56,247 nt of DNA from a virus, in IMG/VR virus record IMGVR_UViG_3300049427_000022, positions 1-56,247 of that record; one strand, written 5' to 3'. A model generated the notes under the pieces. The model made no database searches and had not been told where the DNA came from. It worked only from the letters and a program-made list of their open reading frames with translations. This document shows positions 1,069-56,247 of the stretch, piece after piece. Positions within the stretch are counted from its first letter, which is position 1. Each line of letters opens with the position of its first letter. A program made the translations under genes and the position numbers.

Positions 1069-1572
1069 TTACGCGAATACCGATTTACGGCAGTATCGGC
1101 ATTTCCCGCATGTTACCGCGTCGGCTTCCTGGTCAGTAATGCTTTCCGGGTCTATTGTTCCAGCCAGGCCGCAGCCAGTGGAATTTTTGCTATCTGGTTC
1201 GTACAAGTGTATTTTCGGGTTTCCCTGGTAGCGTACCGTTTGTACGGTCTTCGGTAGCATTACGCCCAGGTCTGCGGCTACCCGCTTTTCGACTGCCGCG
1301 AAGTCTACAGCGATTACTGGCGCAGCTGCTATACTTGCCGCATGTTCGCCCCAGCCCAGCAATTCAAGCAGTGCTTTCGCCCTTTGCGCTTTATCCGGGT
1401 TAGCTGCCATATAGAGAGGTATCATTTCTTCCAGCAGTTCACGCTGGCCGAATTCCGGGCCGTTCGCTTTCGCTAGGGCATCGAGCAGCGCGCGCGTTTC
1501 CGGGACTAACTTTGTGCTATATACTACCAGGGTCTTACCTTCCGCGATTCGTTTACCTTTTGCCATTTGCAT
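1069..1572 (-). CDS. Hypothetical protein with C-terminal CxxC zinc motif
   Basis: 167 residues (165 from the second Met at 1566). The N-terminal half looks helical (KLVPETRALLDALAKANG), and the C-terminus carries CGKCRYC plus an isolated TGCG, suggesting a zinc site. Two starts are possible: ATG at 1572 is very close to GAGGGCGG, while ATG at 1566 has better spacing. First gene after the promoter at 1609-1638. Not recognised. Confidence 0.7.
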   Translation of the reverse strand: MQMAKGKRIAEGKTLVVYSTKLVPETRALLDALAKANGPEFGQRELLEEMIPLYMAANPDKAQRAKALLELLGWGEHAASIAAAPVIAVDFAAVEKRVAADLGVMLPKTVQTVRYQGNPKIHLYEPDSKNSTGCGLAGTIDPESITDQEADAVTCGKCRYCRKSVFA

Positions 1573-1638: not shown

Positions 1639-1693
1639 GACTTTTAATGACTGATTAAGGGCTGCAACTATGATATATAAAACCATCGTTCCG

Positions 1694-1911
1694 AAAGGGG
1701 GGTACTTCTATACAAAAAGTAAAAGCCGGGTAAGTGTACTAAGAAAGTACCCCCCCGGCAAATTACAGCGTTCTTATATTAAAAGTTCAAAAGAGTAGAA
1801 CAAAGAAGTAATACTATAAGTAATAGATACTAATAATAACTATATATATATATAACTATTATTATTTATTATTTATATATTTATATTATATATTAGTAGT
1901 CTTTTTACGCT
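1694..1911 (+). repeat. Element E1: G/C-tract inverted repeat plus AT-rich block, copy 1
   Basis: This fills most of the gene-free stretch 1573-1919. It starts with an 11-bp inverted repeat, GGGGGGTACTT (1697-1707) with AAGTACCCCCC (1745-1755), loop 37. A conserved TTACAGC...CTTATAT segment follows, and then an AT-only block (about 1834-1895). The same parts in the same order occur on the opposite strand at 31919-32123, with more than 40 identical bases in the AT block. No ORF of note. Orientation is opposite to the flanking genes. Function unknown. Confidence 0.85.
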
Positions 1912-6286: not shown

Positions 6287-8824
6287 CTATCTAAACGCGA
6301 TGTACTGATATACAGCGCCGTTAAAATTCGTCCATGCGTGCTGGAATGTATCCCCGTTGTATCCAACGGAAATCTTATTTGTGCCTATGACTAATTGCGG
6401 CGTCCCAGCCATCGAGAGTATTGAAGGATAAGCCGTAGTTACTATGCCACCCCTATTGTATCCACCATCCCCGGAGGGGATGTAAACCATGCTAGGTGTG
6501 AAAGGTAGCGCAATATCCCTCGAAGCCGTTCCTGTGCCTACGTATGAACCAGAAACAACGGGGTTGTAGTCCGTTCTTAAAAACTCAGCCCAAGCCGTCC
6601 AAATGCCCGCTGCTTGCCTGCGCTCCCATACGCGATTAGTGTAAAAATCACGGGCGGTCTGCGTTACATATCCCCCAGCTTCTGAGTAATTCGTTACATC
6701 TAGGTAAAGCCAATCAGTAACCCCAGCAGGTCTGTTGACGGTTAGCACACCGTTATACTTACCGTTAGTGATTACTGTATCTAGGTTAGTCCCAGAAGCT
6801 AAGAAAATCGTTTCATTGCTAACCTGTCTCCAAGTACTCCAGACGTTGTTTATCTGTCTTCTCGTCCAGAATCTACGGTCATCAGTAGCGTAAGCGTTTT
6901 GTACCGTGTACTCGCCAGCTGGATACCTGGAAACCTCTATAAAGAAGTTCATTCCCGCTGCAGGAACGTTTGTGCCTTGAGGTACGTGATACCAACCGTC
7001 TGTTTTAAGAGTATCAGCGTTTACGCCTGTACCTTGATTGACCATCTCCCGACTTACTAGAGTCCAAGTAGTCCAAACGCCCACTGCTGTTTCCCTGCGT
7101 GTCCATACTCGATTATCGTTGAACGAATATGCAGTTTGTGCAGCGAAGTTCGCAGCGTTATTAATGCTTATTACGTCAATCAAAAATCCACCGCCCGCTA
7201 TCGGACCGTTTACTGCGTTAAATACGCGGTATCTACCTGTAGTTATTAGAGTGTTAATATTAGTGTTGTCAGTAAGAATGACCGTAGTATTCGCCCTGTT
7301 AGCTTTCGCCGCAATCTCTTGCAGCGCGCCTTCTACGTCAGTGGAGGTGATAATATTACCAGCGTCAGCGACAGTAATTATAGATGCGGCATGAGTTGCA
7401 GGATGAGTATAGTTGGTTGCACCTTCCGCTACCCCGGCGAGCTTTGTCTTTTCAGCAGTTGTAAAGTCCTCCATAGACAGCTGCTTACCCGCAACCTTAT
7501 CGACCTTATCCGTGTTTAACGCATCGAGCGATTTGTCCGGCGCTGTGTACCAGTTCGCTTTACCTGTAATGCCCTTAATCATATTTCCGAGTTGCCCCAG
7601 AAGCGACGTAAGGGCGTCGGCTGCACCCGCTGTCTGTACTGTCGTGTCAACGATTTGCCTTGTACCTATCGCTGTGTCGTTAACTGCGCCAGCTGCTAGG
7701 CCTGCCGAAGTAATTTTCGGGGCGTCGCCAGCTGCGCCTGTATGTTTATGACCAACTGCGGCGTCAAATTTCGTATTTACAGCTTCCAGGGAAATAGCCG
7801 GGGCTGTGTACCAAGCAGCCTTCCCGGTAATCTGCTTTGCCATATTCCCCAGCATGGAAAGGTTATTTGTAAGAGTTTGCGCCCCGGCCGCCGCTACTGT
7901 CGTATCTACTAAAGTACGGTTCCCTATTTTTGCGTCAGTCCCCCCGCCGTCCTTTAGCTGAATATGGCCGTTAGTAAATTGTAGACTTACATCGTCAGGC
8001 GTTCCCCCTACCTGGACTAACGTAAGCGCAGTCGTGCCTAGGGTAATTACTCCCGTTGTCGTTAGCTGCCAAGTCGTGAACTGGTTAACTGTACCTTCCA
8101 ATACTCGCGCAGACATCCCAGTCGTAACCTTTCCTGCTGTATCTGCGTCGACTGCTCGCGACCAGGCTGCGGCCTGTACGACGTATACGCCATTTTGTGC
8201 TGCTGTCGTCTGATTCTTTACAAGTACCCGGTCGCCTGCTATTACAGCAACGCCGTCAATCGTTTGCGGGGCTGATAGGTTAATATTCGCGGTAGTTGCA
8301 GCCCTTACCGCGTCTTTTGCGTCACGGATATACAAAAAGCCCCTGTTTACTATATCGCTGTCTACAGCTGGGTCTGCTACCTGGGCGCGCCCGGCTACGT
8401 CGCGCTTCATAAGTACGGAAGCCGTCGCTGCGTTTGTGGCTGCGGTAAGCGTACTGTTCGTCGCTTCTAATGTAGTCGCCGGGGATGTGTACCAGTTCGC
8501 CTTCCCGGTTATGCCTTTTATCATGTTCCCGATTTGTCCCAGTAGCGTAGTTGCTGTAGCAGCAGCCCCCGCCGTTTGCGCTGTGGAATCGGTTATCGTG
8601 CGATTTCCTATAATGGCGTCTGTTGCTGCGCCTGCTACCAGGCCAGCGGTTCCGATTTTTGGCCCTTTACCAGCCGCCCCGCTGTGGTCGTGGCCTGTAG
8701 TTTCGTGGAAAAGTCCGTCCAGCTTTACCCAATTATCCCGCAGCATGGTATCGGTATTAAATACGTTCTCGCCGTCCGTTGCTGTATCCGGGTAATAAAG
8801 CCCCAGCTTCGTAGTTGTTGCCAT
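6287..8824 (-). CDS. Tail fibre / receptor-binding protein with pyocin-knob repeats
   Basis: 845 residues. The N-terminus (KLGLYYPDTATDGENVFNTD) is typical of Bacillales fibre attachment. Three related shaft units end in IGNMIKGITGKANWYT, IGNRTLVDTT...GKAAWYTAP and IKGITGKANWYTAP, two opening with H-x-H(S/T)GAAG. The C-third has three knob-like repeats (TGRYRVFNAV..., TDGWYHVPQG..., TNGKYNGVLT...), each ending RRxxxxxWTxW. A final tip domain starts GSYVGTGTASRDIALPFTP. It should bind the cell surface. The repeats make it a recombination hot spot. Confidence 0.9.
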   Translation of the reverse strand: MATTTKLGLYYPDTATDGENVFNTDTMLRDNWVKLDGLFHETTGHDHSGAAGKGPKIGTAGLVAGAATDAIIGNRTITDSTAQTAGAAATATTLLGQIGNMIKGITGKANWYTSPATTLEATNSTLTAATNAATASVLMKRDVAGRAQVADPAVDSDIVNRGFLYIRDAKDAVRAATTANINLSAPQTIDGVAVIAGDRVLVKNQTTAAQNGVYVVQAAAWSRAVDADTAGKVTTGMSARVLEGTVNQFTTWQLTTTGVITLGTTALTLVQVGGTPDDVSLQFTNGHIQLKDGGGTDAKIGNRTLVDTTVAAAGAQTLTNNLSMLGNMAKQITGKAAWYTAPAISLEAVNTKFDAAVGHKHTGAAGDAPKITSAGLAAGAVNDTAIGTRQIVDTTVQTAGAADALTSLLGQLGNMIKGITGKANWYTAPDKSLDALNTDKVDKVAGKQLSMEDFTTAEKTKLAGVAEGATNYTHPATHAASIITVADAGNIITSTDVEGALQEIAAKANRANTTVILTDNTNINTLITTGRYRVFNAVNGPIAGGGFLIDVISINNAANFAAQTAYSFNDNRVWTRRETAVGVWTTWTLVSREMVNQGTGVNADTLKTDGWYHVPQGTNVPAAGMNFFIEVSRYPAGEYTVQNAYATDDRRFWTRRQINNVWSTWRQVSNETIFLASGTNLDTVITNGKYNGVLTVNRPAGVTDWLYLDVTNYSEAGGYVTQTARDFYTNRVWERRQAAGIWTAWAEFLRTDYNPVVSGSYVGTGTASRDIALPFTPSMVYIPSGDGGYNRGGIVTTAYPSILSMAGTPQLVIGTNKISVGYNGDTFQHAWTNFNGAVYQYIAFR

Positions 8825-22330: not shown

Positions 22331-22362
22331 TGTGTGATTCCTCCAATTACTAATTTAAGTTG

Positions 22363-22402
22363 TCTTTACTTCTTTACTTCTTTACTTCTTTACTTCTTTA
22401 CT
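22363..22402. repeat. Five tandem copies of TCTTTACT
   Basis: An exact 8-bp unit repeated five times, followed by a degenerate sixth, in the 74-bp gap between the scaffold stop codon and the decoration gene. It may be slippage-prone. Confidence 0.9.
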
Positions 22403-22404
22403 TC

Positions 22405-23187
22405 TTACTGTTCGGGCTTGTGGCCAATAAGCGCCAGCATGTCGGCTACGGCTTTGTCTTCCTTAGCCTGATTGCCCGCACCGCCGCCGCCATTACCGCC
22501 GCCAGGCGGTTTACCTTGAAACGTGCCGCTGCCTTTGCCGCCCTTGTCCGCTTCGTCACCTTTGTCGTCTTCGTCTCCAGCGCCGCCTTCGGGCGTTTTG
22601 AATAGGTTTGGTTCCGCTTTTGCCAGCTTCCGCAGTACCAGGTCTACGCTACGTTTGTCGGGTACGTCGTTTTCGTCGTACTCGATTTCGTCGACATAAT
22701 CACGAAGGGCACGTACGACCTGGTTAGGATTAACCGGGGTATATTGCCCGCCAGCGTTTCGGAGTACCGCGTTTTCCAGCGATAGGTCTTTAAGCTTGTC
22801 GCCCATGCTTTTCGCTTTTCCAGCGTCTTTACGCAGCTGCGTTAACTCCGCTTCGGTTACGGTTCCTTCTTTTTTGCCGTCGCCTTTAGCCAGTCCTACG
22901 ATATGCGCTAGTAGGCCCTTATTATCTACGTCCAGTTCTACGCCCGCCGTTTTAAATTCCTTGCGAATGATACGGCGCGCGACGTTAACCGCCATACGGT
23001 CTACGTCTTCCTGGCTGTAGATCAATTCGCCGCCTTCCGGGGCTTTAGGGTTGAATTCCAGCGCTTTGTCGTGTTCATCCTGGGTTAAGTCTTCGTCTGC
23101 CAGCAGATCGGCTACCTTCGCGTCATACTGTTCCTTCGTAAGCTTGCCAGCGCGGTACTTTTCCTGTAATTTTTTCAGCCAGTCCAT
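22405..23187 (-). CDS. Scaffold protein (GP20-like)
   Basis: 260 residues from ATG 23187 (MDWLKKLQEKYRAGKLTKEQ), preceded by AAAGGAA; the longer start at 23319 is unsupported. Highly charged, helical centre (VTEAELTQLRKDAGKAKSMG; KLKDLSLENAVLRNAGGQY) and a glycine/lysine-rich C-tail. Typical head scaffold, located before decoration and capsid genes. Confidence 0.85.
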   Translation of the reverse strand: MDWLKKLQEKYRAGKLTKEQYDAKVADLLADEDLTQDEHDKALEFNPKAPEGGELIYSQEDVDRMAVNVARRIIRKEFKTAGVELDVDNKGLLAHIVGLAKGDGKKEGTVTEAELTQLRKDAGKAKSMGDKLKDLSLENAVLRNAGGQYTPVNPNQVVRALRDYVDEIEYDENDVPDKRSVDLVLRKLAKAEPNLFKTPEGGAGDEDDKGDEADKGGKGSGTFQGKPPGGGNGGGGAGNQAKEDKAVADMLALIGHKPEQ

Positions 23188-29209: not shown

Positions 29210-29710
29210 TTATATATGTGTCCATATTTTTCTATTAATGATATCGGATACCGTAGGCTGCGTTATGCCGTATCGTGCGCCTAAGTCCTTCATTCGTACT
29301 TTGCCTGGCACATATTCGGCCCGTATTGCCCGTACGTCGGCTTCCGTAAGCTTTGTCATGGCCTTCGTAGCTTTTGTCTGGCTTTCCAGCTTACGCGCTC
29401 GTTTTATGGCCGCCAGTTGTTCGGGGTCTATTTTTTCGCCCTCTATATGGCCCCAAGTAGCCCCGTTAACAATATTTTCCACACTAGAAGACGAAATACC
29501 GTATATTTTTCCCAGTTCCTGGGCATTTTCGCCCCCCCGGTACTTTTTTCGGATTTCTAAAACCTGTATATAAGATAGTTTTGAGTTCTTGTGTTTTTCC
29601 CCCCGTGGGGTACTGGCCTGGTGGCTTTTTTTATAAAATTCCATATATTCTTCAAGTGAAGCGAATTCCCCAGTAAGTCCAGCATGACGTTTAGGCGTCT
29701 GTTCTTTCAT
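29210..29710 (-). CDS. Double-HTH DNA-binding protein, paralogue 2
   Basis: 166 residues with two similar HTH modules: KLSYIQVLEIRKKYRGGENA with KIYGISSSSVENIVNGATW, and KLTEADVRAIRAEYVPGKVR with ARYGITQPTVSDIINRKIW. Such modules usually sit next to HNH nucleases, but no nuclease is present. Related to the next gene and overlapping it by 20 bp, so a tandem duplication is likely. Position before terL could suit a packaging-site binder or late regulator. Confidence 0.78.
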   Translation of the reverse strand: MKEQTPKRHAGLTGEFASLEEYMEFYKKSHQASTPRGEKHKNSKLSYIQVLEIRKKYRGGENAQELGKIYGISSSSVENIVNGATWGHIEGEKIDPEQLAAIKRARKLESQTKATKAMTKLTEADVRAIRAEYVPGKVRMKDLGARYGITQPTVSDIINRKIWTHI

Positions 29711-30197
29711 AATCAGCGCCCCTTACGTCTTTCCATATCTTAAAGGCTAGAATATCGCTTATTGTCTTAATATTGACGCCGTATTCATTCGCCAAATGAA
29801 GCTTTTTAGCCCCTTCTGCGAATCTCTGGCGTATAGCTTGTACTCTTAACTTATCTAGCTTTGCATTCGGGTGACTTGCAGGGCAGGCGGCAGCTTCGGC
29901 TTTCTTGGCTGCCTTGTATTCTTCAACGCTGCCATATTCGCCCATAGGGATATGCTGCCAGGATTTCCCGGTAACAATGCCCGCTATAGTGGAATTGCCT
30001 ACACCGTATTCCTTTGCTAGGTGCTTCGTCCCGACTAAGCCAGGTAGATACTTCTTTCGAATCTCTATTACCTGGGCTTCGGTAAGTACTGCCGTTCTGC
30101 TTTTTTCGCCTTGCTTGGCTTCTGATTGCTTTTTACGTGTCTGCTCCCTATGGGCTTCTACGTATTCTTCCAGGCTTCCGAATTGGCTGGGGTTCAT
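29691..30197 (-). CDS. Double-HTH DNA-binding protein, paralogue 1
   Basis: 168 residues with modules VLTEAQVIEIRKKYLPG...AKEYGVGNSTIAGIVTGKSW and KLDKLRVQAIRQRFAEG...ANEYGVNIKTISDILAFKIW. An N-terminal FGSLEEYVEAHR matches the ASLEEYMEFYK of its neighbour. ATG 30197 with GGGAGG. Driven by a repressor-controlled promoter (30232-30260), so it is an early gene although it sits in the packaging region. Confidence 0.8.
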   Translation of the reverse strand: MNPSQFGSLEEYVEAHREQTRKKQSEAKQGEKSRTAVLTEAQVIEIRKKYLPGLVGTKHLAKEYGVGNSTIAGIVTGKSWQHIPMGEYGSVEEYKAAKKAEAAACPASHPNAKLDKLRVQAIRQRFAEGAKKLHLANEYGVNIKTISDILAFKIWKDVRGADYERTDA

Positions 30198-31255: not shown

Positions 31256-31277
31256 TATCGCGCCCCCTTTTTTTAGT

Positions 31278-31295
31278 AGTAAAGACAACTTTACT
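31278..31295. repeat. Inverted repeat in the late leader
   Basis: AGTAAAG-acaa-CTTTACT, a perfect 7-bp hairpin just before the TerS ribosome site. It belongs to the recurrent TTTACT motif family of this phage. Confidence 0.6.
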
Positions 31296-31331
31296 TCTTT
31301 ACTTCTTGAAGTTTGTTCCGTAAAACGAAAA

Positions 31332-31409: not shown

Positions 31410-31439
31410 ACTATACTTTAAAAATGCGTAAAATGTCAA
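31410..31439 (-). promoter_or_regulatory. Late operon promoter
   Basis: -35 TTGACA (31434-31439), 18-bp spacer, -10 TATAGT (31410-31415). The -35 overlaps the stop codon of the upstream 146-residue gene. Drives TerS through lysis genes, about 27 kb. Confidence 0.75.
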
Positions 31440-31876
31440 GCTTCGACTTTTACCGACTTAATCTTAGCTAATAGCAAGCCGTGCGCCGCTTGCAGGCCTT
31501 CCAGCCTGGCCTTTTCTTCGGCTGCTTTCCCGTTTATTTCCCGGTATAAAAATTCTTGGCCCTGTTCCAGCCCCCGGATAAATACCGGGCGACGTACATT
31601 AAGGATACGCAGCGCTTCCTTCTGTAGGATCGGCCTTATATAGTGAAACCGAACGCAGTAGAACGAAAATGACAATTCCTTACGCAGCTGCCCCAGCGCC
31701 TGGTCTAACATAATCTTATTCAAGCGCCCGCCGCTTACGCCGTCGGTCTGCTTCGGGCCGCTGTTCACTATTTTTACCTGGCCGTCGTCGATTTGGTCGC
31801 CTGCTTCCAGGCTGCCGTAGTTTTCCAGCCAGCGTATTACATTCTTCTTCGAGACATACCCTTCAATATGCGCCAT
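31436..31876 (-). CDS. Possible late transcription regulator
   Basis: 146 residues. IEGYVSKKNVIRWLENYGSL, then a QTDGVSGGRLNKIMLDQALG segment and helical C-half (KSVKVEA end). Size, position directly upstream of the late promoter and the 'DG-x-S' helical layout recall ArpU/RinA-type late activators of Gram-positive phages, but the match is weak. Placed between element E2 and the late promoter. Regulator role is inference. Confidence 0.6.
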   Translation of the reverse strand: MAHIEGYVSKKNVIRWLENYGSLEAGDQIDDGQVKIVNSGPKQTDGVSGGRLNKIMLDQALGQLRKELSFSFYCVRFHYIRPILQKEALRILNVRRPVFIRGLEQGQEFLYREINGKAAEEKARLEGLQAAHGLLLAKIKSVKVEA

Positions 31877-31918
31877 TCCCCAGCCCCCATAAATTGCCAG
31901 TTCCCCGGCAAAGAAATA

Positions 31919-32123
31919 AAGACTATATAATATATAAATATATAAATAATAAATAATAATAGTTATATATATATAGTTATTTAATAGTTAGTAAGTATAG
32001 TAATACTTACTGCTCTTTTCTTTTAATATTTTGATATAAGACTGCTGTAAATCTTAGGGGGGGTCATTTCGCAGCCCGGCCTTCGTTTGCCGACTACTAC
32101 ACTAAGAGTACCCCCCCTAAGAA
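31919..32123 (-). repeat. Element E2: G/C-tract inverted repeat plus AT-rich block, copy 2
   Basis: Related to E1 (1694-1911) but inverted. Here TCTTAGGGGGGGT (32052-32064) and ACCCCCCCTAAGA (32110-32122) form a perfect 13-bp inverted repeat with a 45-nt loop. The AT block (about 31925-31982) is nearly identical to that of E1, and the TTTACAGC...CTTATAT segment lies between. A further 9-bp inverted repeat, AGTAAGTAT / ATACTTACT (31990-32011), is present. No gene inside. Function unknown. Confidence 0.85.
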
Positions 32124-32156
32124 ACGCGACATTTATATATCATTTTTCGCAGCCTA

Positions 32157-34754: not shown

Positions 34755-35372
34755 CTATTCCAGTACGCTACCCGCAGCGCGGGCCGTTACTTCGCCCGGT
34801 CTTACCGGGTCGGGTTCTTTTTGTGCTGCGAAGTCTAACAGATATGAGGCAGATTCCGAACTAAGCAAGGTAAAAGGCGTTATAAGAGATTCGCAACGCG
34901 TCCCAGTTCCTGCTAGATAGGCCCCAAAGGCGGCACGAAGCGTATCTATTTCCATAGTGGCCAATGCGGGAGTATCACCTTTTCCGTCCCGCCCATTTAC
35001 GGTAAGCGGCATATAGAAAGTTGTACCGTTCCTTTCGGTAGCTAGGCCTTTTATGGTCGTCATACGGCCTAGAATATTTACGCCTGCTGCGAATTCCCAG
35101 GGGTTGGTGTCGTCCATGGCATAAGCAGGGTTCGGCTGCCCCATTAGCAGCAGTGGGTTATCATGTTCCCGCCATAATTTAATATATTGATAGTTTTCTT
35201 CACAGTTAATTTCTATGAATTCTTCGGTTACGTTGTTACTAAAGATACCGTCGTCGTGCAAGGTCTTAACTATGAATTCGTGCGCTTCCGCTAAGTCCTT
35301 AAAGCCCAGGTCGTCGCCTAGCGTTATTTCGTGCTTCGCGCCCAGGTTCGTTACTATTTCGGCCTTAATCAT
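34755..35372 (-). CDS. Hypothetical early protein
   Basis: 205 residues. EIVTNLGAKHEITLGDDLGF at the N-terminus, then FYMPLTVNGRDGKGDTPALA and a mixed C-half. An eight-base overlap with the 3D-domain gene. The C-terminal part reads like a beta-sheet virion or DUF domain, but I do not recognise the family. Confidence 0.6.
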   Translation of the reverse strand: MIKAEIVTNLGAKHEITLGDDLGFKDLAEAHEFIVKTLHDDGIFSNNVTEEFIEINCEENYQYIKLWREHDNPLLLMGQPNPAYAMDDTNPWEFAAGVNILGRMTTIKGLATERNGTTFYMPLTVNGRDGKGDTPALATMEIDTLRAAFGAYLAGTGTRCESLITPFTLLSSESASYLLDFAAQKEPDPVRPGEVTARAAGSVLE

Positions 35373-36087
35373 TTCGTTTTTTCCCCCATTCGATTACGTA
35401 TACTTTCTTCTTTTGCCTGCCCCATTCCAGGGCTTCGTCCAGGTCGGCTATATATAAGTCGATATGGTTACCGTTTACCGCGCCGCCCTTATCTTCTACC
35501 GTCCGTTCGCCTACGTCTTCGATATAGACGCGCGTACCGACTGGCAATACGTTCAGATCGGCGGCAATCGTGCGGCCTTCCTTTACGGTAGTGCCGCTGT
35601 ATGTGATTCCGTAGCCTTCCTGGCCGGGCTTCTTCTGCGTCGATTCGTACCCGGCAGTATAGGCCGTTATAGTAAAACTTCCCCGATAATCAGCCCCAGC
35701 AGTAGGCCCGTTAGAAGATAAAACAGGCTTCGAAGTTTCGCCTGGTGCTTCGTTTTTCCCAGCAGCTGCCGGGCTGCTATCCAGTATTCCAGGTTCGCCT
35801 GGCTTACCTTCTTTTCTGCTTCCCAGGCTGCCCGATACTTCCGGGCTTGGTCGGTTAAATAGTTCGCTTCCGCTTTGTCTATGTCTTCCCCAGTTATATA
35901 GCTTTTCATAGGCCGCGCCCCTTCCCTTCGTTTGTACGTCTGCTGCGATTCCTTGCGCTGGGCTTCCCGTTGTCTGCGTTCGTATCCCTTCCCCCAGCCT
36001 GTCTGCTTCTTTGCCATGCGCCCCAGCCCCTAGCAATAAGGTTAAAAGCAGCGCCGCCGAAGCGGCTACTGCCCTGCGTTTATTCAA
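35365..36087 (-). CDS. Secreted 3D-domain protein (YocH-like wall hydrolase domain)
   Basis: 240 residues from TTG 36087, which overlaps the upstream stop (TTGA); no good ribosome site is visible, so coupling is needed. Residues 1-25 are a signal peptide (KRR, then AVAASAALLLTLLLGAGA). A low-complexity linker follows, and from about residue 135 a 3D domain: FTITAYTAGYES, GRTIAADLNVLPVGTRVYIE, GGAVNGNHIDLYIADLDEAL, with the three conserved aspartates. Similar domains occur in YocH-type and resuscitation-factor-like muralytic proteins. A second gene lies inside it in another frame. Confidence 0.78.
   Translation of the reverse strand: MNKRRAVAASAALLLTLLLGAGAHGKEADRLGEGIRTQTTGSPAQGIAADVQTKGRGAAYEKLYNWGRHRQSGSELFNRPSPEVSGSLGSRKEGKPGEPGILDSSPAAAGKNEAPGETSKPVLSSNGPTAGADYRGSFTITAYTAGYESTQKKPGQEGYGITYSGTTVKEGRTIAADLNVLPVGTRVYIEDVGERTVEDKGGAVNGNHIDLYIADLDEALEWGRQKKKVYVIEWGKKRND
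35667..36017 (-). CDS. Nested tail-anchored coiled-coil protein
   Basis: Wholly inside the 3D-domain gene, in another frame. 116 residues from ATG 36017 (AGGGGCTGGGGCGC upstream), or 80 from ATG 35909 (GGGAAGGGGCGCGGCC upstream). After a basic N-terminus comes a helical MKSYITGEDIDKAEANYLTD and a C-terminal membrane segment (LFYLLTGLLLGLIIGEVLL). Two good ribosome sites and a coherent protein pattern argue that it is real. The layout recalls embedded Rz/Rz1 genes. Confidence 0.6.
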   Translation of the reverse strand: MAKKQTGWGKGYERRQREAQRKESQQTYKRREGARPMKSYITGEDIDKAEANYLTDQARKYRAAWEAEKKVSQANLEYWIAARQLLGKTKHQAKLRSLFYLLTGLLLGLIIGEVLL

Positions 36088-37468: not shown

Positions 37469-40063
37469 TTATGAAGCCCCTTTCCGCGCTGCGCGCTTTT
37501 CTTCCAGCCATTTTTCGACGCTCATTTTCTTGCCCCAGGCGTAGCCTACCGAAGCTTCCGCTTCAATCGGTACCGGGAAGCCCTCTATAGGCGGCTTCGT
37601 CATGGTGGCTTGTACCCAATGCCAAGCGGCTTCTACTACGTCCGGGTCGTCGTCCATTTCGAAAATCATCTCATCGTGTATTTGGGCTTCCATATCCGTT
37701 TTGCCGTGTACCAGGATTGGGGGCGCTTCGCCTAGGTCGTGGGCCAGCTGCGCCGGATTTATGCCCAGTTCGTCAGCGTCGAATGCCAGGTTAGTACCGC
37801 GCCCGGTTTCTTCGTAGACTTCGTTCTGCGCCTTCTTCATAACGTCGGCTGCGGTTCCCTGGATAGGCGTATTTGCGGCCTGGCGGGCTGCCGATTGCCT
37901 GTAATATGTGTTCGTGCTGTTAATTTCGGGAAGCAGTCGAATATAGCCGTAGATCGTGCTTACGAATCCGTCTTCGCGGGCTTGCAGCGCGATTTCTTGC
38001 TGGAATACCGGGACGCCTGGGTAAGCTTTCTTCGTACCGTCTACCATTACCGCACATTCGGCCAGAGTCTTACGTTGACCGTAATCCGTCTTAATGGTTT
38101 TTTGTAGTGCGTGTTCCGTACCGCCATAGGCCATACCGAAGTTCGCAGGCTTCGCGTCCGTCCGTTCCTGCTTCGTTACTTCGCTTTCTGGCTTATTCGT
38201 AATGGCAGCGCCTGTCTTTCTGTGCATATCGCCGCCAGTACAGAAAATTTCTATCATGACTTTATCGCCCGACTTCCAGGCTAAGATTCTAAGTTCGAAG
38301 CCGCTAAAGTCGATAAAGAATAAGATTTTGCCCGGCCCGGCTACGTAGAAGTTCCTTACGCCCAGTTCGTCGTTTTCCAGGCGCGGTACGTTCTGCCCGT
38401 TCGGCTTCATACTGTTTAGGCGGCTGGTATCCGTCCAGGGCGTATAACTCGCGTGAATTTTCCCGGTTACTGGGTTCTGCCATTTCTCCCTGCCGTCAAC
38501 ATGGGAAGAAAGCAAGGTATTCATTTTTTGATACCGCCCCATTAGTTCAAGCATTCGCAAGCCTACGTCTTTAAATGGATGCGGGGGCCGATTTCGTAGA
38601 TCAATTGCTGCGCGCTGGTCTTTACCTAAGTCGTACCATTCGGGGCTATCTTGCTTGTAAGACTCCCAGCCTTCGGGTAGTTCGACAGACAATAACTTTT
38701 CTTCTGCCAGTTCTTCCAGGTTGTTTTCCAACATGAATTTAATATCTATTAAGGCTTCTTCGTCTAGCGATATGCCGCCTTTATCGGTGGGCTTTCCTTT
38801 TGGTAATTTCATCATGTTAAATAGCACATACTTAACACTGTTCGTTTTCCCTGTCTTTCCTAATGAAATTTCCATCCCTACGGATTCTTTCGAAAGTTGG
38901 TTAATTTCGTTAGCGGCTTCTGCTTGAATAGACCAGGCTTCTTCTCGCTTCATTTGTGCCAGGTGATTATCCCAGCCCATGCCGTTATATTCCATAAGGC
39001 CGATAACCCTAGAAAACGGCATTTCGATTTCGTGCAGCCATGTATCGTAATTCGTTCCCTGTCGGTCGTCCTTAATCTGTACGGCCACCTGTTTCCAGTA
39101 AAGGTAATGTTGTAGGCCGTAGTCGGCGTCTTCTGCGGAATATACCAGGCCGTCGCCGCTGTCTGCTGCGATTTCGTCAAAGAAGTCTACGCTGTACTTC
39201 GCCAGCAATTCTTTAAATTCGCTCATGTTTACGCCGAAAATCGCTTTAGTAGCTGGCTTCAAGCCCCATCCAGTCGCGGGTTTCTTCTGATCGTTTAAGC
39301 GCTTCGAGTCGGCGACTTGCAGGCAGCGTACCCACATTACCAGCGGGTCGGCGACTGGCAGAAGAATGTACTTACCGTACTTTGCAGCGAATTTAGTTTC
39401 GAAAGAAAGATTTACTGCTATCTTTACTACTTTACGATTACGGAATATAAGACGGTCTAGAGTATCCATAACCAGCCTCCGGGCTTCTTCACGGCTTAAC
39501 GTCGGTTCAAATACCCGGCCTGCCTTATGGTCAATCGGTACGACGCGCGATTCATGTGGCGCAGCGGCTAGGGATACGGTACAAACTTCGCCCCGGTGAG
39601 GGTCTAGCGGCGTCAATAGATATTCTTCGCGCGCTGCCGCCAGCTGCGCTTCGTACTCTTTCTTTAGCGCGGCTCTTTCTTTAGCGTCGTTTTCATCCAT
39701 TGGGAAGCCGTCCAGGTTCGCTATTTTCTTTTCTACTTCTGCCTTATAAGCAGCGAAAGCTTCGCGGGCCGCTTTACTTGCTGCGGTTTCCCAGTCGAAG
39801 CTGCATAAGCCTAGGGCTTCGCAACGGTCTGCGTAGGCTTCTAGTTCGGCCTGTGTCAGTATCGGTTTGTAGTCCTTTATTTGCTGCTGCGGTATCGTCG
39901 GCCAAACTATCCCGAAGTCGCCGGGGCGTTTCTTAGGCGCTATTGCTCTAGCCAGGGCCGCCCCAGGTACGGGCAGCGGCTGGCTAGGATCGGCAGGCTT
40001 TGCGGGCAAGGCTTTCGCCAGGGTTTTCTGTGGCATGTTTCCAAAAAGGCCGCCTAGTTTCAC
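37469..40063 (-). CDS. Family A DNA polymerase (Pol I-like, with 3'-5' exonuclease region)
   Basis: 864 residues from GTG 40063, 9 nt after AGTAGGTG. Polymerase motif A is FFIDFSGFELRILAW, motif B RTDAKPANFGMAYGG, motif C QIHDEMIFEM. Exonuclease motifs: SFDWETAA (ExoI), NLSFETKFAAKYG (ExoII, Glu where Asp is usual) and YSAEDADYGL (ExoIII). No 5'-3' exonuclease domain. It should be the phage replicase working with the primase-helicase. An operator sits upstream. Confidence 0.92.
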   Translation of the reverse strand: MKLGGLFGNMPQKTLAKALPAKPADPSQPLPVPGAALARAIAPKKRPGDFGIVWPTIPQQQIKDYKPILTQAELEAYADRCEALGLCSFDWETAASKAAREAFAAYKAEVEKKIANLDGFPMDENDAKERAALKKEYEAQLAAAREEYLLTPLDPHRGEVCTVSLAAAPHESRVVPIDHKAGRVFEPTLSREEARRLVMDTLDRLIFRNRKVVKIAVNLSFETKFAAKYGKYILLPVADPLVMWVRCLQVADSKRLNDQKKPATGWGLKPATKAIFGVNMSEFKELLAKYSVDFFDEIAADSGDGLVYSAEDADYGLQHYLYWKQVAVQIKDDRQGTNYDTWLHEIEMPFSRVIGLMEYNGMGWDNHLAQMKREEAWSIQAEAANEINQLSKESVGMEISLGKTGKTNSVKYVLFNMMKLPKGKPTDKGGISLDEEALIDIKFMLENNLEELAEEKLLSVELPEGWESYKQDSPEWYDLGKDQRAAIDLRNRPPHPFKDVGLRMLELMGRYQKMNTLLSSHVDGREKWQNPVTGKIHASYTPWTDTSRLNSMKPNGQNVPRLENDELGVRNFYVAGPGKILFFIDFSGFELRILAWKSGDKVMIEIFCTGGDMHRKTGAAITNKPESEVTKQERTDAKPANFGMAYGGTEHALQKTIKTDYGQRKTLAECAVMVDGTKKAYPGVPVFQQEIALQAREDGFVSTIYGYIRLLPEINSTNTYYRQSAARQAANTPIQGTAADVMKKAQNEVYEETGRGTNLAFDADELGINPAQLAHDLGEAPPILVHGKTDMEAQIHDEMIFEMDDDPDVVEAAWHWVQATMTKPPIEGFPVPIEAEASVGYAWGKKMSVEKWLEEKRAARKGAS

Positions 40064-40087
40064 TGTGGATAACACCTACTTTTATTT

Positions 40088-41174: not shown

Positions 41175-44100
41175 TTAAATAAAATCGTCTTCCATATTAT
41201 CGAAAAGGCCTTCTTCGAATAGCTTGGCTATGAAGGCATTAAAGCGGGCCGTTTTCCGATAGCCCCCGCTGGTCTGCTGAATCATTCGCATATTAGCCAG
41301 TAGGGCTATGATAGCCTTACCTTCTTCCTTCTCTATTGCCAGCATAGCTTCGACGTCATTCTGCCGAAGGTACTGCTGCTGGGCAAATAGCTTAACGAAT
41401 TTGTAGTAGGCCTGGTCGCCTTTCAGCGTGGATAATTCCCGCAGCTTTTCGGTAATCTTGCCGTACTTTTCGGCGTCCAGTTCTTCTTCCCTTATAGCCA
41501 GCTTCGCGTAGTAGTTAAGACCGCAGCCTGGCGCGTTATACAAGCTTTTAAGGTATTCCCGGATAAAGTCTACATGTCCCGGCCATACGACAATTCTTTC
41601 GCCCGATTCGTCTACGCTGTGCGTCAATGCTGCCAATGCGACGGAAAGCCGGGCTATCTTATTACGCTGGTCAGAAGGCGATACCAGCGGTACGTCGCTG
41701 GCGTTTCCGTATATCTTCGACAATTCGGTAGCTACTTCCAGGATACGGTCTATCGTATCCGCGTTAAATATTACGTGTTCGGGCTTGCGTGACCAGGCGA
41801 ATAGGATGTTATTTTTAAGCGTTTCAGAATTTACGAAGCTGGGATACGTCGGCAGCTGCCGGGTATATTCTTCGGCGCTCACGTCGTTCATTCGCATAAA
41901 TACCGCGAAGTCAAAACGGCGAATGTCCTCATTATTGAAAATGTCCCGCAGCACTTCTACGCCCTGGCCGTAGCTTGCCAGCCTGCGGCCCTTCGGCGGG
42001 TTCCCGGATAGAATAGCGCGTACCCGGCATGGTGTTTCTGCGGTAACGGCCTTCTTAACTTCCAGCCGTCCGTCGCTGCGCGCCAGGGTCATTTCGCCGT
42101 AGTTCTCTTTTTCTATCCCGGTGTCTTCGTCAATCCATATTAGTTCTTTGTCCGAAAGCGGCCATACGCCCCATACGATATACCAGGCCCCGGCACTTCC
42201 GCTTTGCTCCATTTTGTACGTAAGCCCGGTACGGCTGGTACTTTCCGCGTTTACGCGATTCCCAAGCCCGGTAAACTTCCGTATGCCTTCGATAAGTTCA
42301 CTTTTCCCGGTTCCCGTGTCCCCGACTATTTTTAATTCCAGCCAGCCCCGAATCGGTAAGCTTGTCCAAGGTACATTAAAGCGTAGGACGCTATGGTAAG
42401 TAAGTAAAACGCCTAGCAGCGTTTCATCGCGTTCTACGATTTTCGTTACATTGTAAGTAAGATCGGCGCATATGGCCGCCAGCTTTTCTTCGATTGCCGC
42501 AGCTGTGTAGTTTGCCGGGCGCAGGGCTTCCATGCTTTCCTTTACGCCGTCGTCTAATGTGAAGCTGTCTACGACGTCCTGTAAAGGCTTCGCTTCCTTA
42601 ACCAGTATCGTAGCTTCCTGGTTCTTCGGATGCGGGAAAACATGGCCTGTTATTTCATAGTATTTATTTTCGGTTACGTCCGACTTACCGATAGAATAAG
42701 CCTTCCGCATTACGTAACGCCCCTTACCTTCTTCGGATTCTGTGCTACTTGAATCAGCCATAGGAATTACCAGCAGTTCTTCTACGTTCGTCGTTTCGCT
42801 TATTTCTGTATTGTACTTATTGCAGGCTGGGATACCCGATATAGTCCGAAGGATTCCAGTAATGTTGTCCTTCGCCGTCGCCGTCATTTCCAGCAGTTCC
42901 GGGTCGCCTATGCCTAAGTCCTTAAAAAGCGTATGGCTGGGAATATCGTAAAGCGGGCAATGCGTCTTTTTGCAATCCTTACGGCCCCAACAATAATATT
43001 CAATTTTCGAAGGTACGATATAAGGCGTATGCTTCTTCCCTGCTACCATTACCTGGGTCTTAACCAGCTTGCCATGCAGTTCAGCGTCGCCAGTATGCGC
43101 CAGGTGAAGGCTTACAGATTTGCTATCGTCGTTCGTTGCTTTTTTTAAGCAATGGCATAAGGCCCCCGCGCAGGCTACCCGGTCGTAGTCCTGGCTTCCT
43201 GGTATCTTTTCGCCATGAAGCGCCCGGATAAAGGCGCATCCAAACTTATAGCCATTTTCCTTATCGTAGACGGCTTCTACGACGCTGCGCGTATTGGCTA
43301 CCCGCTGTTCGGCGTCGTATTTGCTGCCTGCGCTTGTATGCTTACGTACCCATTCTTCCAGCAGCTTTAAGGCTTCTTCCTTCGGGTGGCCTGCTTCTTT
43401 GTAATAAGCCGCCAGTTGTACGGTCGCCTGGTTTCGGTCGCCTTCCTTCTTCCAACCGCCAGTTAAAATATCCGTAACACATACCGGGGGTCTATCCTTT
43501 CGGAAGTTGAATTCTTCAGCGAATTTTTTTACGGAAGTGGCAGCGGCTTCGCGCCATTCCTTTTCTTTATCCTCATAAAATAGGACGGCCTTCGGTCGCA
43601 TATCCCGCGCAGCTTTTCGCTGTGCAGGGTCTAAAACAGGATAAAGGCGGGGGCCGTTAGCCATGCCTTTAATTTCTTCTAGGGTCTTCGTTCGAAGTTC
43701 GTCTATGCTCAATTCAATTTTGAAAAGCTTTGTACCGCTGTGAATACTGTTAGGTAGCCGCAGCATACGCGAAGAAGTGTAAACTACCAGGTCTAAAGCA
43801 CGAAGGCCTAACCTATGTACCAGGTAGCCCGCGATATGTTTATAAACCTTATGCAATTCTGTACCCGGCTGAATGTCCAGGGCTTGAAAGTCTATTAAGA
43901 TATGGAATCCTTTGCTGCCCGAAAAATATAAATGAATATCGGTTTCCTGTATTTCCAGTTCGTTCATAAAAAAATCAATAAGCTTTACTGCGTCTGCCTG
44001 GCTTACTGCGGGGTCGCTCTTATAATCCAAGTCAAAATACAAAGGGGCGATAAAGCTTTCGCCCCGCGCCCCCCTGCTTTTGCTGGTATAGCGCTGTACG

Positions 44101-44255
44101 GTACAAAAGCAGTTGAAGTTATTGGCTTCTTCCTGCTGGTACTTCTTGACGCCTTCCGGGTATTCTACCCGCGTCCAGGGTACAGGCTGCCCGCTGTCGT
44201 TTGTATGCCAGGCGTCTACGAATTTATAGTCTGTTATCTGCGGTTCCCTTGCCAT
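41175..44255 (-). CDS. AEP primase fused to an MCM-like helicase
   Basis: 1026 residues. N-terminal archaeo-eukaryotic primase: YFDLDYK (Asp75, Asp77), LYFSGSKGFHILID and SSRMLRLPNSIHSG. A middle zinc segment includes YYCWGRKDCKKTHCPLYD. The C-terminal AAA+ helicase has Walker A GDTGTGKSEL (about 645), a TSRTGLTYKMEQ segment, Walker B ELIWIDED and a sensor-like RVRAILSGNPP, more like MCM than SF3. The layout and size match the prophage MCM described from Bacillus cereus. It should act as primase and replicative helicase. Confidence 0.88.
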   Translation of the reverse strand: MAREPQITDYKFVDAWHTNDSGQPVPWTRVEYPEGVKKYQQEEANNFNCFCTVQRYTSKSRGARGESFIAPLYFDLDYKSDPAVSQADAVKLIDFFMNELEIQETDIHLYFSGSKGFHILIDFQALDIQPGTELHKVYKHIAGYLVHRLGLRALDLVVYTSSRMLRLPNSIHSGTKLFKIELSIDELRTKTLEEIKGMANGPRLYPVLDPAQRKAARDMRPKAVLFYEDKEKEWREAAATSVKKFAEEFNFRKDRPPVCVTDILTGGWKKEGDRNQATVQLAAYYKEAGHPKEEALKLLEEWVRKHTSAGSKYDAEQRVANTRSVVEAVYDKENGYKFGCAFIRALHGEKIPGSQDYDRVACAGALCHCLKKATNDDSKSVSLHLAHTGDAELHGKLVKTQVMVAGKKHTPYIVPSKIEYYCWGRKDCKKTHCPLYDIPSHTLFKDLGIGDPELLEMTATAKDNITGILRTISGIPACNKYNTEISETTNVEELLVIPMADSSSTESEEGKGRYVMRKAYSIGKSDVTENKYYEITGHVFPHPKNQEATILVKEAKPLQDVVDSFTLDDGVKESMEALRPANYTAAAIEEKLAAICADLTYNVTKIVERDETLLGVLLTYHSVLRFNVPWTSLPIRGWLELKIVGDTGTGKSELIEGIRKFTGLGNRVNAESTSRTGLTYKMEQSGSAGAWYIVWGVWPLSDKELIWIDEDTGIEKENYGEMTLARSDGRLEVKKAVTAETPCRVRAILSGNPPKGRRLASYGQGVEVLRDIFNNEDIRRFDFAVFMRMNDVSAEEYTRQLPTYPSFVNSETLKNNILFAWSRKPEHVIFNADTIDRILEVATELSKIYGNASDVPLVSPSDQRNKIARLSVALAALTHSVDESGERIVVWPGHVDFIREYLKSLYNAPGCGLNYYAKLAIREEELDAEKYGKITEKLRELSTLKGDQAYYKFVKLFAQQQYLRQNDVEAMLAIEKEEGKAIIALLANMRMIQQTSGGYRKTARFNAFIAKLFEEGLFDNMEDDFI

Positions 44256-54612: not shown

Positions 54613-56247
54613 ATGCAATCCGTAGCAGAAATACAGGAGATTGCCGACTATTTCAGCCAGCAAAGGGCCGTCTATTACTACAAGCAAGTCCCATCGGGTA
54701 AAGACCTTCGCGTATTTATCTATATCCGGGTTTCAACAAAAATGCAGGAACACCGTTTTTCATTGAAAGGCCAAATACAGGAATTAATCTCATATGCTAA
54801 TAGTATGGGCTGGGTTATCGTGGGGATTTATCGGGATGTAGATACCGGGGGGAAGTTGGACAAAGCGGGCCTAACCCAGTTACTGGACGACGTAGACGAA
54901 GATAAAGGCGACATAGTTCTATGTATCGACCAGGATAGGGTTTCTCGTCTAGATACCGTAAGCTGGGAATACTTAAAAAGCCAGCTGCGCGAAAATAGTG
55001 TAAAGATAGCCGAACCTGGAAAGATAACCGACCTTGCAGACGAAGACGACGAATTCTTCGCTGACCTTAAAAACTTATTCGCCCGCAGGGAAAAGAAAAA
55101 AATTGTTAAACGTATGATGCGCGGTAAACGGCAACGTACGCGGGAAGGTAAAGGCTGGGGTAAAGCGCCCTGGGAATACGATTACGATAAGAATACTGGC
55201 AGCTATAGCATTAACGAGAAATGGGCCTGGATTATACCCTTTATCGACGACTTATACCTAGGCGAAGAAGGCCTAAGCGATACGAATATAGCAATTAGAC
55301 TTACGGAGATAACTAAGACGCCCAGCGGTAAAACCTGGGATTCCCAGCACATAATGCAGCGCCTTACATCTAAGCTTTATCATGGCGTCATGGAAAAGTC
55401 ATTCGGTAACGGCGAAACGATTGTCGTAGAAAATGTCTACCCACCTCTGCGGACAGAAGAAACCTGGCTAAAAATACAGGCGAAACGAAAATCGAAGTAC
55501 CAACGTCGCGCCCCGATATACCCGCATATTCTGCGTAACATTAGTACGACTTGCGGGCATTGTGGAATGAAGCTGACTCTAAAACAAAGCGGCACGAAGA
55601 CCAATATACACTATTATTACCAGCATGGCCGCGAATACAAAGCGACGTATTCCCCAGGCTGCGGTCTATCCATAAATACGATCCGCATAGAATTCAACTT
55701 CGTAGCGGCCTTAAAGGGCATTCTAAGCAGTGAAGAAACCGCGAAGCACTATATACAGTTCGAATACGGACAAAGCGATATAGACCAGCTTACGAAGGAA
55801 ATAGACGCAACGAATAAGCTATTACAGGCTGTCCAGGGGAAAATAGATAACCTTCTGGATTTATACCTGGATGGCGGCTTTACTAAAGACGTTCTGAACT
55901 CTAAAAAGGAAACGCTGGAAAAGGAACGCGATTTACACCAAACGAATAAGCGCCAAATGGAAGCGAAGAAGGAAGCCATAGCGGCGAACCAGTTTAATTA
56001 TTCGACAGTTTACCAGTACCTCGCCGTCGCCGAACGGTTCGAAGTCATGTTAACGGAGAATGAAAAAATGGAAATGGTCGGTACGCTATTCGCCAGCGGC
56101 GTACTATTCGAAGATCGGTACGTACTACAGGGGAACATGGCGGGGATACCTTTCGAAGTCGTAATACCAGTAGCCGACAATCCTTTCGAATTCATGAAAA
56201 ACCCAAGAACGAAAAAGCCCCGCGCTGAAAAGCAGCCAGGGCGATAA
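54613..56247 (+). CDS. Large serine recombinase (phage integrase)
   Basis: 544 residues, ending exactly at the window edge. Resolvase core: VFIYIRVST with Ser41, CIDQDRVSRLDTVSWEYLKS. Recombinase domain: KRMMRGKRQRTREGKGWGKA. Zinc ribbon: CGHCGMKL with a later SPGCGLS, then a coiled coil (KEIDATNKLLQAVQGKIDNL) and a C-terminal region. It has about 30 extra residues before the catalytic core. Catalyses attP x attB integration. Co-transcribed with cI, 12 bp apart. Confidence 0.94.
   Translation: MQSVAEIQEIADYFSQQRAVYYYKQVPSGKDLRVFIYIRVSTKMQEHRFSLKGQIQELISYANSMGWVIVGIYRDVDTGGKLDKAGLTQLLDDVDEDKGDIVLCIDQDRVSRLDTVSWEYLKSQLRENSVKIAEPGKITDLADEDDEFFADLKNLFARREKKKIVKRMMRGKRQRTREGKGWGKAPWEYDYDKNTGSYSINEKWAWIIPFIDDLYLGEEGLSDTNIAIRLTEITKTPSGKTWDSQHIMQRLTSKLYHGVMEKSFGNGETIVVENVYPPLRTEETWLKIQAKRKSKYQRRAPIYPHILRNISTTCGHCGMKLTLKQSGTKTNIHYYYQHGREYKATYSPGCGLSINTIRIEFNFVAALKGILSSEETAKHYIQFEYGQSDIDQLTKEIDATNKLLQAVQGKIDNLLDLYLDGGFTKDVLNSKKETLEKERDLHQTNKRQMEAKKEAIAANQFNYSTVYQYLAVAERFEVMLTENEKMEMVGTLFASGVLFEDRYVLQGNMAGIPFEVVIPVADNPFEFMKNPRTKKPRAEKQPGR

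Follow-up and report, generated by a model that had tools for sequence, protein, structure and literature searches.

The analysed DNA, referred to below as the window, is the 56,247-base virus record IMGVR_UViG_3300049427_000022. It encodes a serine recombinase, an S24-type repressor, an SPP1-type portal, sheath, baseplate J and amidase and is, as read from its sequence, a temperate phage of Gram-positive bacteria. The genes relevant to the two non-coding elements described here, E1 and E2, are the following.

1069..1572, minus strand: gene for a possible ribbon-helix-helix (RHH) protein, adjoining E1 on the left (one homologue against RHH_1, E 0.011)
31436..31876, minus strand: gene for a small sigma-region-4-like protein by predicted fold, just past E2 and first in the terminase operon
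37469..40075, minus strand: family-A DNA polymerase (Pfam DNA_pol_A, 3.7e-69), in a replication module shared with the primase-MCM
41175..44255, minus strand: fused primase-MCM (Pfam MCM, 6.3e-12; DNA_primase_S, 8.5e-10; PDB matches were MCM proteins)

The primase-MCM would be the replicative helicase-primase and possibly also the initiator. The sigma-region-4-like product was modelled with a pLDDT of 76, with weak Foldseek hits on sigma region 4 and on phage Q21 (E above 0.3). Its homologues likewise gave weak sigma matches, and the gene is kept beside E2 in relatives. It may be a late-gene regulator that has no name in Pfam or PHROGs. The closest relative found was IMGVR_UViG_2925334634_000005 (primase-MCM 97% identical to that of the window), whose elements match L061 and L062 of Paenibacillus sinopodophylli. 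The isolated relative is Bacillus phage vB_BboS-125 (P125; 67% identical).

Elsewhere in the window, two neighbouring HNH/homing-endonuclease-related genes (29210-30197) lie between the small and large terminase genes. A 106-nt direct repeat with 73% identity (7537-7642 and 8479-8584) within the 845-aa gene 6287-8824 likely represents repeated tail-protein modules. Tandem 8-bp units TCTTTACT were found at 22354-22406 and 31271-31315 and single units near promoters, e.g. at 1609-1638; these are possibly operator repeats.

E1 (approximately 1670-1908, plus strand) and E2 (approximately 32143-31910, minus strand) lie about half a genome apart, and the earlier note was correct in describing them as two inverted, non-coding copies at these places. 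Its extent for E1 (1694-1911) was right in location, but the left edge lies about 25 bp further out, at the ATATATAA box (1673-1680). Both elements have the same order of parts: ATATATAA box, 15-16 bp, G-run with TA, about 43 bp, TA with C-run, 15-20 bp, mirrored TATAT box and about 100 bp of AT-rich DNA. By comparison with homologues, an element consists of two copies of one two-box unit, which point toward each other. The arms of the G/C inverted repeat have the lengths given earlier, 11 bp in E1 (GGGGGGTACTT/AAGTACCCCCC) and 13 bp in E2 (TCTTAGGGGGGGT/ACCCCCCCTAAGA). The differing loop length that had been claimed was not found, since 47 bases separate the end of the G-run from the start of the C-run in both copies. 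The AT block noted as shared corresponds to a 51-nt inverted pair with 96% identity (repeat I1), and the flanking parts form the inverted pair I2. The individual features are as follows.

1673..1680, plus strand: E1 outer left box ATATATAA; box-to-G-run spacing fixed among homologues
1697..1704, plus strand: E1 G box GGGGGGTA; four G nearest TA invariant in the 33 elements compared
1748..1756, minus strand: E1 mirrored box TACCCCCCC
1774..1781, minus strand: E1 outer right box TTATATTA
1809..1908, plus strand: E1 AT block, candidate DNA unwinding element; lowest stability of any 100 bp in the window
32132..32140, minus strand: E2 outer left box, ATATATAAA on the minus strand
32109..32117, minus strand: E2 G box, GGGGGGGTA on the minus strand
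32057..32064, plus strand: E2 mirrored box, ACCCCCCC on the minus strand
32033..32040, plus strand: E2 outer right box, CTTATATC on the minus strand
31910..32009, minus strand: E2 AT block, candidate DNA unwinding element; second lowest stability of any 100 bp in the window

The pattern box-G4TA-spacer-C4 matched the window at E1 and E2 only (9 overlapping matches) and was absent from 100 dinucleotide-preserving shuffles; no half-site was found in the window outside E1 and E2. Mean stacking was -0.897 for the E1 AT block and -0.911 for the E2 AT block, compared to -1.057 for the next-lowest 100 bp and a window mean of -1.409 (sd 0.082, 100-bp stretches). In each of the four element-bearing genomes for which the ranking was computed (window, P125, G012 and p3), no other 100-bp stretch was as unstable as the two AT blocks, and their candidate unwinding role is assigned by computed stability. 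AT blocks from one genome resembled each other more closely than AT blocks from different genomes (0.76 vs 0.62).

Homologues were collected by pattern scans of viral and genome collections and by an unbiased search via the gene next to E2. This yielded approximately 35 distinct elements, carried by Bacillus and Paenibacillus phages and prophages and by one phage-plasmid. In the unbiased set, which includes members with only 28% identity in the E2-side protein, the element was present on every contig that reached far enough upstream of the E2-side gene. Nucleotide BLAST of E1 against phage records gave no match because the element is too diverged. Pattern matches in L040, L044, L046, L050, L054-L056, L058 and L060 were judged as chance, since the AT block was absent. 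Metagenome contigs in the set may carry assembly errors, chiefly in AT repeats. Compensatory arm changes, which the earlier note had named as support, were observed as interrupted G-runs whose opposite arm is altered to match (GTGAGGGG/CCCCTCAC in G005 and TAGGGG/CCCCTA in G006).

Two copies were present in 9/9 near-complete genomes (G000, G001, G002, G005, G006, G008, G015, G016 and P125), and the pattern read backwards gave no match in these nine. The outer box of E2 is changed in G002, and G015 has one further, chance-like match at 38109. A second, variant copy lies within 48.4-48.9 kb of G012, and the Bacillus velezensis plasmid p3 carries exactly two copies. Every near-complete genome checked that has a closely related primase-MCM had two copies. 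No recognisable element was found in G004, whose primase-MCM is 53% identical. Near the least stable stretch of G004, at approximately 26.0 kb (L026:1-100), GATATATATATAAAAATTGAAGGGGTATAG...TTATATCCCTAG may be a degenerate relative of the element. In the nine near-complete genomes the copies are separated by 0.42-0.50 of the record on the shorter arc, an approximate value because some records are trimmed. Where genes were read, the copies divide the terminase-to-lysis arc from the early/replication arc.

The conserved position expected earlier was found for E2, which lies beside the sigma-region-4-like gene, but not for E1, the neighbours of which vary: the RHH-like gene in most genomes, integrase and repressor in G006 and G008, and others in G012, G015 and G016. 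Similarly, the opposite orientation of E1 and E2 holds for the window, vB_BboS-125 and several relatives, while E2 is flipped in G009, G010, G015, G016 and L078. A leader, a terminator or a single-gene promoter is unlikely because of the flipped E2 and the changing E1 neighbours. This agrees with the earlier view that the elements are not simple terminators or leaders, as does the lack of an intrinsic terminator: no GC stem followed by a T-run occurs at the element. G012 and p3 have kept the replication module and the element together with unrelated terminase and capsid genes. A packaging site was set aside as unlikely, as the element is present in two copies and is kept with unrelated structural genes including terminase.

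The geometry of the element was compared across homologues. From the start of the left box to the end of the G-run, 30 bases were counted in 33/35 homologues and 29 in two; the G-run-to-C-run interval was 43-48 in 33/35 and 53 in two. The spacer lengths of 43-48 and 53 do not fall on whole turns, and helical phasing of the spacer was dismissed. The spacer is A-rich on the strand running toward the AT block in 34/35, flipped elements included, and therefore has a polarity of its own. Outer boxes were TATATA, TGTGTG or ACACAT and always alternated between pyrimidine and purine. Within the G-run, the four G nearest TA were invariant (33 elements), and the next two were compensated in several elements.

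A structured RNA acting in the transcript was considered as well, for which the stems folded better than shuffles (z -2.6 to -3.5). True partners also paired better than permuted ones at G-run positions 5, 6 and 8 (p 0.001, 0.0005 and 0.004, respectively), in a test that left the relatedness of the sequences in and to which symmetric protein sites would respond alike. However, wobble mismatches showed no strand preference among 33 elements (G-U/A-C counts of 2/0 at position 5, 0/5 at position 6 and 5/6 at position 7); an early impression of a one-strand G-U preference from 18 sequences was gone once 33 were counted. RNAalifold on 18 sequences recovered the G/C stem only, with no double change, and the element had no match in Rfam. 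Orientation to the genes varies, and spacing is rigid across unpaired stretches. Selection for a folded structure, as proposed in the earlier note, thus retains weak support through the outer G/C pairing, and an RNA function is highly improbable. Protein-binding sites on duplex DNA would fit better than RNA because of the fixed left spacing, the missing strand preference of wobble mismatches and the variable orientation.

The chief rival to a role in replication is a bidirectional promoter/operator for the sigma-region-4-like gene beside E2. The product of this gene (or a host sigma factor) would use it to activate the late operon, as well as other genes on the E1 side. Read outward, each half would offer a -35-like ACCCCCC, about 17 bp and TATATA/TATATT as -10. 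E2 always precedes the sigma-region-4-like gene, in either orientation, and where E2 is flipped, about 35 bp with a ribosome-binding site separate the outer box from the gene start. Moreover, all complete genomes that have the element also have this gene, and it was not found in G004, which lacks the element; linkage therefore cannot separate replication from transcription. The outer right box, however, reads TGTGTGTA in G2 and L33, which spoils the -10, and the genes next to E1 change. Sigma-70 promoters were not predicted in the element above chance, the rest of the window makes no use of the half-site, and a promoter could do without an AT block on one side that has the lowest stability in the genome. 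On balance we regard this explanation as unlikely. A SigI-like promoter was also considered and rejected; the -35 is similar to ACCCCC, but the -10 departs from the SigI consensus.

Binding of a small protein such as the RHH-like product on the E1 side would make the elements partition or centromere-like sites. The RHH-like gene adjoins E1 in many members and the element occurs in a phage-plasmid, but it also occurs in the isolated phage vB_BboS-125, for which no lysogeny has been shown, and E1 lies away from the RHH-like gene in G006 and G008. The RHH_1 match of the homologue was below cut-off, and the model of the protein was poor (pLDDT 56). Two copies half a genome apart with a melting block would be atypical of centromeres, and this role appears improbable. 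Recombination between the copies, inverting the 30-kb late segment, is very improbable. It would account for the greater likeness of AT blocks within genomes and for contig L031 (IMGVR_UViG_3300007070_000031, region 773-2088), where one element is E1-like up to the AT block and E2-like after it and is placed between homologues of the E1-side gene 1069-1572 and the E2-side gene 31436-31876. This mixed element could have arisen by recombination of E1 with E2 or during assembly, L031 being a 5-kb metagenome contig that may be joined within a repeat. Gene order was the same in all near-complete genomes, and exchange in G015 and G016, where both copies have one orientation, would delete rather than invert.

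We consider it reasonably probable that E1 and E2 serve this phage as two replication origins, a candidate function assigned by comparative sequence analysis. In each element, a dyad of fixed-spacing two-box sites adjoins the least stable DNA of the genome, and the pair is retained in relatives bearing closely related primase-MCM. Plasmid p3 should hold an origin, since it was deposited as a complete plasmid, and its two elements are its two least stable sites. The varying orientation of E2 and the varying neighbours of E1 are expected of an origin rather than of a leader. Paired origins are favoured by these features together with the two copies that accompany the primase-MCM. Among the roles raised in the earlier note, this one is best supported as a candidate, by the melting-prone block, the dyad, the copy number, the primase-MCM linkage and the phage-plasmid; packaging is unlikely and recombination is not needed. 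Against this reading, four-fold-site skew gave no origin signal, and G004 has a 53%-identical primase-MCM but lacks a recognisable element.

As paired origins, the elements could act as follows. The ATATATAA and GGGGGGTA boxes would be recognised on duplex DNA by a DNA-binding protein of the phage, for which the primase-MCM itself and an accessory protein are both possible candidates. Once bound, the dyad would promote melting of the AT block that lies to one side of it. MCM would load at the melted block, the primase part would prime and the phage family-A polymerase would extend. Theta replication may begin at one copy, with the other acting later, as proposed for SPP1, either as a second start or as a fork block triggering concatemer synthesis.

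Known origins were compared with the element pair. Staphylococcal pathogenicity islands, small mobile elements of Gram-positive bacteria, have one origin at which the initiator-helicase Rep recognises repeats next to an AT-rich region; iterons flank this region on either side, and G boxes are not known there. In the Bacillus subtilis phage SPP1, the two origins oriL and oriR each consist of repeats and an AT-rich unwinding element, and forks may stall at the second, with concatemer synthesis starting from it (PMC6316719, PMC3485210). E1 and E2 are similar in that there are two related copies per genome, candidate protein-binding repeats adjoin a candidate AT-rich unwinding element and one of the pair lies in an intergenic stretch. 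In SPP1, by contrast, gp38 binds direct repeats, a DnaB-type helicase works with host DnaG and the origins are separated by about 13 kb, compared to the inverted G-box dyad, the primase-MCM and the spacing of about half a genome here. No gp38 homologue was found in the Pfam/PHROG scans made. In outline, E1 and E2 would thus resemble oriL/oriR with different boxes and a different helicase, without being a member of that type. The haloarchaeal oriC with G-string ORBs (PMC3528665) shares G-run-ended inverted repeats, an AT-rich unwinding element (a candidate one here) and an MCM helicase. There, ORBs flank the AT element and lie beside orc/cdc6 (PMC3528665), whereas each AT block here has both of its G boxes to the same side. 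Orc1/Cdc6 was not detected in Pfam scans of approximately 40 window proteins, a set that included the neighbours of E1 and E2 and left some small ORFs outside. The elements therefore lack two defining features of archaeal ORB origins, flanking ORBs and an adjacent orc1/cdc6.

In Bacillus phage BSP7 (MH707430; primase-MCM 29% identical), the 11-mer GAAAGAAAATG occurs exactly four times, with two copies at each of its two least stable regions (35236-35410 and 55207-55264). One region lies before the primase genes and the other before terminase; this is perhaps an origin pair of its own with other boxes.

A more far-reaching proposal is a new class of bacterial-virus origin, paired and dedicated to primase-MCM, in which the fused protein reads the G-box dyad itself without DnaA, Orc1/Cdc6 or a separate initiator, and in which the G-string dyad is convergent with, or a relic of, archaeal origins. 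We think this unlikely. No earlier description of the element was found in the open-access literature, although it may have been reported elsewhere; the words "origin" and "MCM" are absent from the vB_BboS-125 paper. Bacterial MCM helicases are known from phages and other mobile elements (PMC5862659), and no described start site was found for this group. Because the same pair is kept in distant relatives with the archaeal-like primase-MCM, it provides a testable candidate start site of that machinery. The short element of fixed geometry is a direct target for cloning and for binding experiments on the loading of the primase-MCM fusion, and it would add a second case of paired origins beside SPP1.
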